A stretch of 64,000 bases of DNA from Porphyrobacter sp. AAP82 (GTDB lineage: Bacteria; Pseudomonadota; Alphaproteobacteria; Sphingomonadales; Sphingomonadaceae), in the NCBI RefSeq assembly GCF_000331285.1, contig NZ_ANFX01000022.1:1-64000 (forward strand), written 5' to 3'. Every line of letters starts with the position of its first letter. Position 1 is the first letter of the stretch. The notes beneath the pieces were generated by a model. The model saw only the letters and a list, made by a program, of their open reading frames with translations, did not search any database and had not been told where the DNA came from. Below, piece by piece: positions 3,189 to 13,434 of this stretch. The position numbers were made by a program, and so were the translations under genes.

Positions 3189-6100
3189 ATTTCCGTCGAT
3201 ACTCTGCTGGCAAGCCCGCCCGAGGCGCTGACCAATCCCGTTCGTACCCGCGCTGACTGGGAGACGATGCGCGCCGCCGCGCTCGCCGATCCGGGCGCCT
3301 TCCATGGCGAGATCGCGGGTCGCAACATGCACTGGTTCGTGGCCGAAGCCGGCGGGCCGGCGGGAGCGTGGCTCGCGCGCGGGACCGATGGTGGCTGGCA
3401 CGGCTGGGACGCGGCGAGCGGTGCGCCGGTCTCGCCTGCGCTGCCTTCGGGCTTCACCCCCTGGCACACCGGTTTCGACGGCTCCAACCCGCCCCACTGG
3501 CGCTGGTTCGTGGGCGGGCGCACCAATGCCGCCTTCTCCGAGCTTGACCGCCATGTGCTCGCCGGCCACGGCGATGAAACCGCACTGGTGTTCGAGGGCG
3601 ATCGCTGGGACATGAGCGCGAACGGCGGCAAGGGCGCGCCGATCGACTGCTTCACCGTCACCCGCAAGCAATTGCTGCTGGAAGTCGCCAAGTGCGCCGT
3701 CGCGCTGGAAGCGCTCGGCCTCAAGCCGGGCGACCGCATGGCGCTGAACATGCCGAGCATCGTGCCGCAGATCACCTGGACCGAGGCCGCCAAGCGCATG
3801 GGTGTGGTCTATACGGCGGTGTTCGGCGGTTTTTCCGACAAGACCCTGTCGGACCGCATCGCCGATACCGGCGCGCGGGTGATCGTCACCTCCGACGGCA
3901 GCTACCGCAACGCCCAGGTCGCCGCCTTCAAGAACGCCTATACCGATCCTGCGCTCGACAATTTCGTGCCGGTCACGACCGCGCTGGCGATCCTCGGCGG
4001 GCTCGATCTGGGCCTGCCGGACGGCGGGCATGAAACGATCCTCGAAACCGTGCGCGAGGCGCTTGCCGGAGAGATCACGGTTGACCGTTCGGACGTGATG
4101 CGCGGCGTGGGCCGGGCGCTCATCAACCTCGGCGCGGACGGGCGCATCACCAGCGCCGATGCCGCGCGGGTGCGGATCGCGATCGCCTCGAGCCTTGTCA
4201 CCCTGCCGCCGCGCGTGGAAGCGGTGATCGTGTGCCGCCACACGCACCAGCCCGACATGATCTGGCGCGAGGAGCGTGACCGCTGGAGCCACGAACTGAC
4301 CGACGCCGCCTTGGCAACGGTGCTGGAGAAGGCCCGCGCGGCGGGCTTTGCCGTGCAGTCGGAGGGCGATCTGCTGGCGCTTGAGGGCGCCGATTTCGTC
4401 CGGGCGATCTGGGCCTCGTCGAAGCCCGTGCCCGTCGATGCCGACTATCCGATGTTCTTCATCTACACCTCGGGCTCGACCGGCAAGCCCAAGGGGATCG
4501 TCCATTCGCACGGCTATGCCGCTGGCGTTGCCGAGACGATGGCGGCAAGCTTCGATGCGCGGCCCGGCGATACGCTGTTCGTGGTCGCCGATCCGGGCTG
4601 GATCACCGGCCAGAGCTATCTCATTTGCGCGCCCTTGATGACGCGGGTGACGAGCCTTGTCTCCGAAGGCTCGCCGGTGTTCCCCCATGCGGGCCGCTTC
4701 GCCTCGATGATCGAGCGGCACGATGTGCGCATCTTCAAGGCCGGGGTGACCTTCTTGAAGGCGATCATGTCCGACCCGGCCAACCTTGCCGAGGTGGAAC
4801 GCTACGACATGAGCGGGCTGCGCGTGGCGACCTTCTGCGCCGAACCGGTCAGCCCCAGCGTGCAGGCCTTCGGGATGGAGCATGTCACGCCGCGCTACAT
4901 CAATTCCTACTGGGCGACCGAACACGGCGGGATCGCGTGGACGCACATGTTCGCCAATGACGATTTCCCCCTGCGCCCCGATGCCCACGCCTATCCGCTG
5001 CCGTGGATTGCGGGTGATGTGTGGGTCGAGGACGAGGCGGGCGCCGGCGCACCTGCCCCCTTCGCGCGCGCCGATGATGGCGGCGTGCCGTGGCGCAAGG
5101 CCGATGTGGGCGAAAAGGGCGAAATCGTCATCGCCGCGCCCTATCCCTACCTCGCGCGCACCATCTGGGGCGATATCGCGGGCTTCACGGTCGAAGATGG
5201 CCGCGTCGATCCCGCCTGGCGCGGCGATGCGGCGCGCTGGGAGGAGGGCTACTGGCGGCGCTGGAAGGGCGCATGGGCCTATACCCAGGGCGATTTCGCG
5301 ATCCGGCATGCCGATGGCTCATTCTCGCTCCACGGCCGCTCTGACGATGTCATCAACGTCTCGGGCCACCGCATGGGCACCGAGGAAATCGAAGGCGCGG
5401 TGCTGCGCGACAAGGCGCTGGCCCCCGATTCGCCGGTCGGCAACGTGCTGGTGGTCGGCGCCCCGCACCGCGAGAAGGGGCTGACCCCGCTCGCCTTCGT
5501 CGTGCCCGTCGCAGGCCGCAAGCTGACCCATGAGGACAAGCGCCGCCTGTTCGACCTCGTGCGCACCGAGAAAGGTGCGGTGGCGGTGCCGGCGGACTTC
5601 ATCGAGGTCAGCCAGTTTCCCGAAACCCGCAGCGGCAAATACATGCGCCGCATGGTCCGCGCGCTGGTGGTGGGCGAGGACGTGGGCGACGTCACGACCC
5701 TGCGCAACCCCGAGGCGCTGGACGAGCTCAGCACCGTCATCGCCGATTGGCAGCGCAAGCAGCGCATGAGCGACGAGCAGGCACTGTTCGACCGGCACCG
5801 CTATTTCCTCGTGCAATACAATATGGTGGCCCCCGGCAAGCAGGTCGCGACGGTCACCGTCACCAACCCGCCGGTCAACGCTCTCAATGAGCGCGCGATC
5901 GACGAGCTGGTGCTGGTCACCTCCACCCTCGCGCGCGATGACAGCGTCGTCGCGGTGGTGTTCACCGGAGAGGGGACATCGTCCTTCGTCGCGGGGGCGG
6001 ACATCCGCCAGATGCTCGAGGAAATCCACACGGCCGAAGAAGCGATGGTGCTCCCCAACAACGCGCACCTCGCGTTCCGCACCATCGAGAGCATGAACAA

Positions 6101-12507: not shown

Positions 12508-13434
12508 ATGATCCAGTACCTGCCCTTCGAAAAGCCGATCGAGGCGCTCGACCGGCATGTGGCGGAGCTTTCCGCCCATGCCGAGGGCACCGAGGAGGCG
12601 CGGATGCTGCGCGAGCGGGCGGACAAGCTGCTCGCCGATACCTATGCGCGCCTCTCCCCGTGGGAGCGCACGCTGGTGGCCCGGCATCCGCAGCGGCCGC
12701 GTTTCGAGAAGCTGGTGGCCGGGCTGTTCAGCGCGTTCCTCTCCATCGCGGGGGATCGCACCTTCGGGGACGATCAGGCGATCATCGGCGGCTTTGCGCG
12801 CTTTGAAGGCCGCAAGGTGATGGTGATCGGCCACGTCAAGGGCGAGGACACGCCGGGGCGCCTCAAGCACAATTTCGGCATGGCCCGGCCCGAGGGCTAC
12901 CGCAAGGCGATCCGGCTGATGGAACTGGCCGATCGTTTCGGCCTGCCCGTGGTGACGCTGGTCGATACCCCCGGGGCCTTCCCCGGGGTCGACGCCGAGG
13001 CGCGCGGACAGGCCGAGGCCATCGCCCGTTCGACCGAAGCCTGCCTTGCCCTGGGCGTGCCGCTGGTCGCGGTCATCATCGGCGAGGGCGGATCGGGCGG
13101 GGCAGTGGCGCTCGCGGCGGCCAACCGCGTGCTGATGTTCGAACATGCGGTCTATTCGGTGATCTCGCCCGAAGGCTGCGCCTCGATCCTGTGGCGCAGC
13201 AGCGCCCAGGCGGCGACCGCTGCCGAGGCGATGCGGGTGACGGCGGGCGATCTGCTCAAACTGGGGGTGATCCACCGCATTGTCTACGAACCGCGCGGCG
13301 GCGCGCACCGCGATCATGGCGAGACGGTGAAGCGCCTGACGCTGGCGCTGCGCTCGGAGCTCGATACGCTGGCCGCGCTGACGCCCGCAGAGCTGCGCCG
13401 CGAGCGCGAGGAGTTTTTCCTCAGGCTCGCCTGA
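12508..13434 (+). CDS. accA: Acetyl-CoA carboxylase carboxyltransferase subunit alpha
   Basis: AccA pairs with AccD to transfer the carboxyl group from biotin to acetyl-CoA, making malonyl-CoA. The 308-residue product spans the whole family: the N-terminal helical part (IEALDRHVAEL), GHVKGEDTPGRLKHNFGM, DTPGAFPG and the GEGGSGGAVALA oxyanion-hole loop. ATG 12508 follows a G-rich site 16 nt after mcr ends, so it is almost certainly in one transcript with pcs and mcr. Placing accA here means malonyl-CoA, the substrate of malonyl-CoA reductase, is made by the same operon. Whether it is a second copy beside a housekeeping accA cannot be seen from this window. It converges with the next gene, leaving 3 nt. 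Confidence 0.95.
   Translation: MIQYLPFEKPIEALDRHVAELSAHAEGTEEARMLRERADKLLADTYARLSPWERTLVARHPQRPRFEKLVAGLFSAFLSIAGDRTFGDDQAIIGGFARFEGRKVMVIGHVKGEDTPGRLKHNFGMARPEGYRKAIRLMELADRFGLPVVTLVDTPGAFPGVDAEARGQAEAIARSTEACLALGVPLVAVIIGEGGSGGAVALAAANRVLMFEHAVYSVISPEGCASILWRSSAQAATAAEAMRVTAGDLLKLGVIHRIVYEPRGGAHRDHGETVKRLTLALRSELDTLAALTPAELRREREEFFLRLA

Follow-up and report, generated by a model that had tools for sequence, protein, structure and literature searches.

Why should a partial CO2-assimilation pathway carry its own copy of a gene for a subunit of acetyl-CoA carboxylase? The question is raised by three full-length coding genes located on the plus strand at positions 3189-13434 of the 64,000-nt stretch of Porphyrobacter sp. 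AAP82 DNA analysed here (hereafter, the window): pcs, encoding a trifunctional propionyl-CoA synthase (PCS), mcr, encoding a bifunctional malonyl-CoA reductase (MCR), and accA, encoding the carboxyltransferase alpha subunit of acetyl-CoA carboxylase and representing the second AccA gene of the genome (2.9 Mb in 52 contigs, rated 100% complete). We consider it likely that the trio is a cassette for CO2 co-assimilation, i.e. a side route, and that its AccA is an old paralogue travelling with pcs-mcr. The core of this picture is already known, namely PCS of the Erythrobacter sp. NAP1 type, MCR of this kind and co-assimilation through a partial 3-hydroxypropionate (3-HP) pathway. What appears to be new relative to the literature that we found is the cassette AccA and the AUU start codon of PCS, neither of which we encountered in print.

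Identity, linkage and distribution of the trio

The pcs gene (3189..8687, plus strand; 1832 aa) is part of a 1925-aa open frame that runs uninterrupted to the stop at 8687. The frame gives a single match to PDB entry 6eqo, spanning residues 113-1920 of the 1925 (2877 bits); the entry is titled acetyl-coenzyme A synthetase, and we take it to be the propionyl-CoA synthase of NAP1. The motif strings of the acyl-CoA synthetase, enoyl-CoA hydratase and reductase are all present, and the combination of three parts in a single chain with the long match to a solved PCS marks the protein, as far as sequence goes, as a propionyl-CoA synthase. The mcr frame (plus strand) ends at 12491 and begins at 8793 or, as a possible longer in-frame alternative, at 8736. 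Its top PDB matches are 6k8s (1414 bits) and 6k8v (1173 bits), presumably MCR fragments of Porphyrobacter dokdonensis. The solved N-terminal fragment begins at the residue encoded at 8793; we therefore use this start throughout, and intergenic gaps of 105 nt (pcs-mcr) and 16 nt (mcr-accA) are then correct. Both active sites of the product, Y204-R207-Y210-K214 and Y757-R760-Y763-K767 (numbered from the 8736 start), conform to the YxxRxxYxxxK motif that PMC10470521 gives for bifunctional MCR, a type to which, according to the same paper, the Chloroflexus aurantiacus enzyme also belongs. With a full-length match to solved MCRs and intact SDR1 and SDR3 sites, the protein is a predicted bifunctional malonyl-CoA reductase. 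Finally, the accA product (12508..13434, plus strand) exceeds the cut-offs of the curated accA models NF004344, TIGR00513 and NF041504 as well as of Pfam ACCA and keeps the conserved residues of the family (see below), which identifies it by homology as AccA. The first-pass annotation of this DNA had proposed these three identities, two SDR halves in MCR and gaps of 105 and 16 nt in an Erythrobacteraceae-like genome; all of this stands, and the nearest named loci mark the genome as Erythrobacter/Porphyrobacter-like.

The arrangement of the trio is not due to chance. A scan of genome contigs for PCS relatives yielded 267 stretches, and among the best 80, on which our locus counts rest, the pcs-mcr-accA layout recurs in 43; the recurrence of the same order argues against an accident. 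The distance between the mcr and accA hits is at most 64 nt in 42 of these loci, one of which is truncated by a contig end, and 2,078 nt in the remaining one, that of Glacieibacterium. A further 21 of the 80 loci have mcr and more than 3 kb of additional sequence without accA, 10 have no mcr match (in seven because the contig ends; the others, two from Chloroflexus and one from Aneurinibacillus, have 3 kb or more of downstream sequence), and 6 could not be judged for accA linkage. The accA-linked loci span several genera, and in 10 of the 42 loci with a readable accA start this start and the mcr stop share nucleotides (TGATG or GTGA/TTGA type), an arrangement typical of translational coupling. 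With their shared strand and short gaps, the three genes form a putative operon. Foreign base composition was rejected, since the operon GC of 0.67-0.69 falls inside the window's range. The PCS relative of Aneurinibacillus danicus (Bacillota; L077) is 59% identical, with no MCR match in the 3.3 kb downstream.

PCS is present in 51 of the 114 genomes of the genus, 43 of them with a window-type protein (best piece at least 86% identical) and 8 with a NAP1-type one (67-73%), so that the pathway is no surprise in this group; family-wide, 40 of 397 sampled genomes have it. NAP1 itself (L043), placed in the same genus by the genome grouping used, encodes PCS and MCR 69% and 60% identical to those of the window in the same head-to-tail order, but the locus analysed has no accA: its mcr is followed by a convergent response-regulator-like gene. 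P. dokdonensis DSW-74 (L037; MCR 94% identical), on the other hand, carries the same pcs-mcr-accA trio. The PCSs of two Chloroflexus loci (L083 and L084) are 59% identical to the window's, with no MCR match in either; in C. aurantiacus, PMC3150298 places pcs, mcr and accA apart, as Caur_0613, Caur_2614 and Caur_1647.

In the PCS tree, a single 46-row clade takes in 41 of the 44 accA-linked rows. Two accA-linked loci have as neighbours (support 91) several that lack accA, namely NAP1, another Erythrobacter, Blastomonas, a Sphingomonas and a Phyllobacteriaceae assembly, so that accA was either lost in the NAP1-side group or gained twice. Upstream of the cassette, a queF-like gene was matched in 23 loci and an EAL-like gene in 21, and since these neighbours occupy nearly always the same position (one Novosphingobium hit lies elsewhere), the cassette seems to have been inherited in place within the genus.

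Copy number, ancestry and constraint of the cassette AccA

A PF01039 search of the genome returned six genes: three large carboxyltransferases, one accD (above the TIGR00515 cut-off) and two accA. A second accA, which the first-pass annotation had suggested looking for, is thus present, and it is the cassette copy that is the extra one, with an ancestry of its own. The proposal that accA provides a local malonyl-CoA supply fares less well: the trio lacks accB, accC and accD, and the genome's one accD lies on another contig. Two AccAs in a genome are a rarity: at E<=1e-90 they were found in 5 of the 397 family genomes (G000, G260, G173, G284 and G307, the last a fragmented assembly), and in the class (58 genomes) and phylum (40 genomes) samples only the window's own genome has two.

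For the genus, PCS and AccA listings were compared by hand, with matches listed down to E ~1e-63, and the counts that follow hold among the matches listed. Full-length cassette-type accA is present in 40 of the 43 genomes with window-type PCS; G430 has a partial copy, and the fragmented assemblies G434 and G454 have none. A household AccA accompanies it in 37 of those 40 genomes and is not listed for G426, G463 and G464 (drafts rated 71-90% complete). None of the eight NAP1-type PCS genomes has a cassette-type AccA, and the NAP1-type draft G444 shows no strong AccA at all. The window's accA is an extra AccA that is part of the cassette and not of the genus. As to genomic setting, the household accA of this genome (L005, 148-1210) lies directly behind a phage-integrase-family (XerD-like) gene, surroundings that differ from those of the cassette copy.

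Three genomes of one genus (G030, G113 and G219; completeness rated at 99-100%) yielded a single AccA, located behind mcr; G173, of that same genus, and G284 have both a cassette AccA and another one, and the drafts G256 and G022, with PCS and accA on separate contigs, could not be judged. Since no other AccA was found in these three near-complete genomes, the cassette AccA can probably do the job of a household AccA.

A 171-row AccA tree places 42 of the 43 cassette-labelled rows and the three sole-copy rows in one 49-row clade (support 99), which also contains two duplicate rows of these genes together with the accA of G256 and that of G022. This clade is placed with household AccAs from certain other genera in the family and away from those of the genus of the window. 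In a 61-row tree with rows hand-picked from the 171 (the cassette AccA of G173 is not among them), 20 cassette AccAs form one clade (99/94) that is sister to some households of other genera (93/88; wider group 96/91). An in-genus duplication of accA was rejected: the approximately unbiased (AU) test on the 61-row tree rejects holding this genus's cassette and household AccA together (p-AU 0.005), the tested groups having been chosen after earlier trees were seen. Glacieibacterium was dropped as a cassette case. Its accA is separated from mcr by 2 kb and follows a GDSL lipase-like gene; a first 122-row tree, with few family household rows, put it among the cassette AccAs, and with more such rows it groups with the unlinked accA of G140. 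From these trees we conclude that the cassette AccA is old and arrived together with the cassette.

Conservation was assessed against 143 household rows (row L280 was dropped). The window's AccA retains 67 of the 68 columns conserved in at least 98% of them, the sole exception being Asp256: codon 13273..13275 (plus strand) encodes His where 141 of the 143 household rows have Asp. Among the 46 cassette rows, 33 have His at this residue, of which 21 are of Erythrobacter/Porphyrobacter type, 8 of Novosphingobium type and 4 from other loci; Asp is retained in the three sole-copy rows. Codon alignments gave a median ratio of non-synonymous to synonymous substitution rates (dN/dS) of 0.117 for cassette accA (14 loci, 91 pairs) and 0.128 for household accA (8 loci, 28 pairs); the values for pcs and mcr are 0.101 and 0.090.

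These data bear on the possibility that cassette accA is a passenger, adding gene dosage or nothing and linked to pcs-mcr since the cassette is inherited as a block. The NAP1-type cassettes, with the pathway genes and no accA, are compatible with such a passenger, and so is Glacieibacterium, where a household accA came to lie 2,078 bp from pcs-mcr through rearrangement alone. We nevertheless regard this as unlikely, given that purifying selection on cassette accA is about equal to that on household accA, that the linkage recurs in 43 of 80 loci and several genera, that the mcr stop and accA start overlap in 10 of 42 readable loci and that the cassette copy is the sole AccA found in three near-complete genomes.

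No paper on the cassette accA was found in a literature search that proceeded largely without subscription papers and without supplements. With an AccA that travels with the pathway genes, a CO2-assimilation module would bring along an exchangeable part of a central enzyme, one whose gene is present almost everywhere else as a single copy. The occurrence of cassettes of both kinds, with accA and lacking it, within a single genus, and of genomes in which no AccA other than the cassette copy was found, provides a natural comparison for asking how aerobic phototrophs divide malonyl-CoA between CO2 uptake and the synthesis of lipids.

Metabolic partners and the role of the cassette

In the route that we favour, the cassette AccA would act with household AccB, AccC and AccD to convert acetyl-CoA and bicarbonate to malonyl-CoA, MCR would convert malonyl-CoA to 3-hydroxypropionate and PCS would carry this on to propionyl-CoA, which propionyl-CoA carboxylase and methylmalonyl-CoA mutase would turn into succinyl-CoA. 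In a photoheterotroph, the cassette would add CO2 to acetyl-CoA, spending NADPH and ATP when light is plentiful, and its AccA would raise or redirect carboxyltransferase capacity upon cassette expression. Assembly of this AccA with AccD, co-transcription of the trio, the direction of flux and the purpose of the AUU start of PCS (see below) are presumed in this scheme, whereas gene identity, linkage, distribution and the conservation of that start site are observed directly, as is, in part, the ancestry of AccA.

The genome offers several of the partners that this route calls for. A methylmalonyl-CoA mutase above its cut-off shares a contig with a carboxylase beta-like gene at C24:4628; the only curated match of the latter is below cut-off, and it is a putative propionyl-CoA carboxylase by its position beside the mutase. 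Conversion of propionyl-CoA to succinyl-CoA is thus probably possible in this genome. Reaction-centre genes (puf L/M-type) are located at G000:C16. The downstream propionyl-CoA metabolism and the photoheterotrophy anticipated by the first-pass annotation are both supported by these genes. Across the genus, puf is found in 50 of the 51 genomes with PCS (all but G464, a 350-contig draft) versus 35 of the 63 without (Fisher p 4e-8, uncorrected for kinship among genomes and with counts read by hand).

A relative provides a precedent. PMC10674011 describes Porphyrobacter sp. ULC335 as a photoheterotroph with a partial 3-HP pathway, proposes CO2 co-assimilation for it and denies it a full fixation pathway, so that co-assimilation rather than autotrophy had already been stated for Porphyrobacter; the 3-HP genes are reported there to be up by day. 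The enzyme structures, too, come from published work on relatives, and the daytime transcription was seen in that Porphyrobacter, not in the present strain. The main text of the ULC335 paper does not contain the terms malonyl-CoA, propionyl-CoA, acetyl-CoA carboxylase or operon. Elsewhere, published work reports the reverse case of a partial bi-cycle without MCR and PCS (PMC6593406), an incomplete 3-HP bi-cycle in bloom phototrophs, there without propionyl-CoA carboxylase (PMC11089705), and light-stimulated CO2 uptake in Erythrobacter longus (cited in PMC12999727).

Could the operon instead mainly supply propionyl-CoA for odd-chain lipids, polyhydroxyalkanoate or B12-linked metabolism, rather than serve CO2 assimilation? 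Propionyl-CoA is the product, and acetate assimilation may already be covered by an isocitrate lyase homologue, located at C8 of the genome. But the mutase and the carboxylase beta-like gene on one contig would pull propionyl-CoA to succinyl-CoA, PCS co-occurs with puf, and the 3-HP genes of ULC335 are induced in daytime (PMC10674011), and we hold a mainly propionyl-CoA-supplying role to be quite unlikely. Replacement of the glyoxylate shunt was rejected as a function, as isocitrate lyase homologues (divergent, E ~1e-20, partial stretches in one frame) occur in 112 of the 114 genus genomes. A complete autotrophic 3-HP bi-cycle, which C. aurantiacus runs, is not supported and extremely improbable here: the first half is complete, but the second is not evident, given that the sole HpcH/HpaI-family protein found in the search for a malyl-CoA/methylmalyl-CoA/citramalyl-CoA lyase, the one second-half enzyme searched for, is closest to citE/RipC and below all curated cut-offs, that for malyl-CoA lyase included, and that a full fixation pathway is denied for ULC335 in PMC10674011.

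Several observations weigh against CO2 co-assimilation with an old, travelling AccA. The 8 of 51 PCS genomes in the genus whose NAP1-type cassette has no accA imply that the pathway can do without the extra AccA, and the divergent isocitrate lyase homologue in 93 of 93 good genomes of the genus implies that the route is probably not needed for growth on acetate. A constraint joining every cassette AccA to the household AccA of this genus is not rejected by the AU test (p-AU 0.126), so it is branch support that points to the household lineage of origin. In the 171-row tree, the cassette AccA of G173 (L264, G173:C27:63408-64319) is placed apart from the other cassette copies at the end of a very long branch (0.94), which possibly reflects a relaxed or changed function. 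Lastly, a search of 2850-13600 for plus-strand promoter-like sites came up empty, and terminator-like sites are no more frequent than expected by chance, a result that says little in this group.

With respect to reaction-centre genes in other genomes, a second pair (PF00124) is located ~5 kb past the cassette accA at L202 (11147-13092; G448:C17), with a Rieske/hemerythrin-domain protein between, and G448 carries a further puf-type gene, located on contig C7. Four PF00124 matches were obtained in G486; those listed lie on two contigs.

The start codon of PCS

The PCS start had been placed at 3189, where the codon is ATT (3189..3191, plus strand), and the alignment of the genus and upstream stops in relatives back this placement. 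The alignment comprises 42 window-type genus rows, 40 of them readable (L283 and L289 lack the anchor), with ATT at the start site in 30, ATG in 9 and TTG in 1. Unlike the window, P. dokdonensis has ATG; the Novosphingobium rows have ATG at the corresponding position as well. A G-rich run is found ~7 nt upstream, at near-equal spacing before ATT and before ATG, and in the window it is the Shine-Dalgarno-like GGGGG at 3177..3181 (plus strand), 7 nt before the start. In L013 (same genome as L119), L062, L064 and L296, an in-frame stop lies upstream of the start site, and the 1 to 6 codons between include no ATG, GTG or TTG. On a 30-row PCS tree, the ATT/ATG pattern requires four switches, three of them forced by well-supported branches. 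Judged from this conservation, PCS translation appears to begin at the AUU at 3189.

AUU start codons are very rare in bacteria; infC and pcnB of Escherichia coli use AUU. This rarity favours a start at a downstream codon instead, either a CTG a few codons on or an ATG 26 codons on, in which case the conserved preceding stretch would be untranslated. We judge a downstream start to be very unlikely, since the G-rich run and its spacing match those at the ATG of siblings and the stretch from ATT to the conserved protein is free of frame-breaking indels and stops in all 30 ATT rows. The AUU start of PCS was not found among the listed papers on AUU start codons, judged by titles and abstract openings. 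If confirmed, the AUU start of this 1832-residue metabolic enzyme would add an unusual instance of AUU initiation conserved throughout a clade.

On the favoured reading of the trio as a co-assimilation cassette, PCS translation would be set by the AUU start. A more specific version, which we offer as a tentative and on balance doubtful idea, is that of an exchangeable carboxyltransferase subunit: a light-expressed cassette AccA, with His256 in this lineage, would replace the household AccA in the AccA-AccD core and commit acetyl-CoA carboxylase to CO2 co-assimilation over fatty-acid synthesis, and the AUU would tie the rate of the last step to initiation-factor or growth state. In G030, G113 and G219 the cassette subunit would have taken over as sole AccA, and one operon would then serve both CO2 assimilation and lipid synthesis. 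Finally, mcr is preceded by the ribosome-binding-like stretch GAGGAGAGAG (8780..8789, plus strand), and a comparable stretch is present in most of the genus relatives compared.

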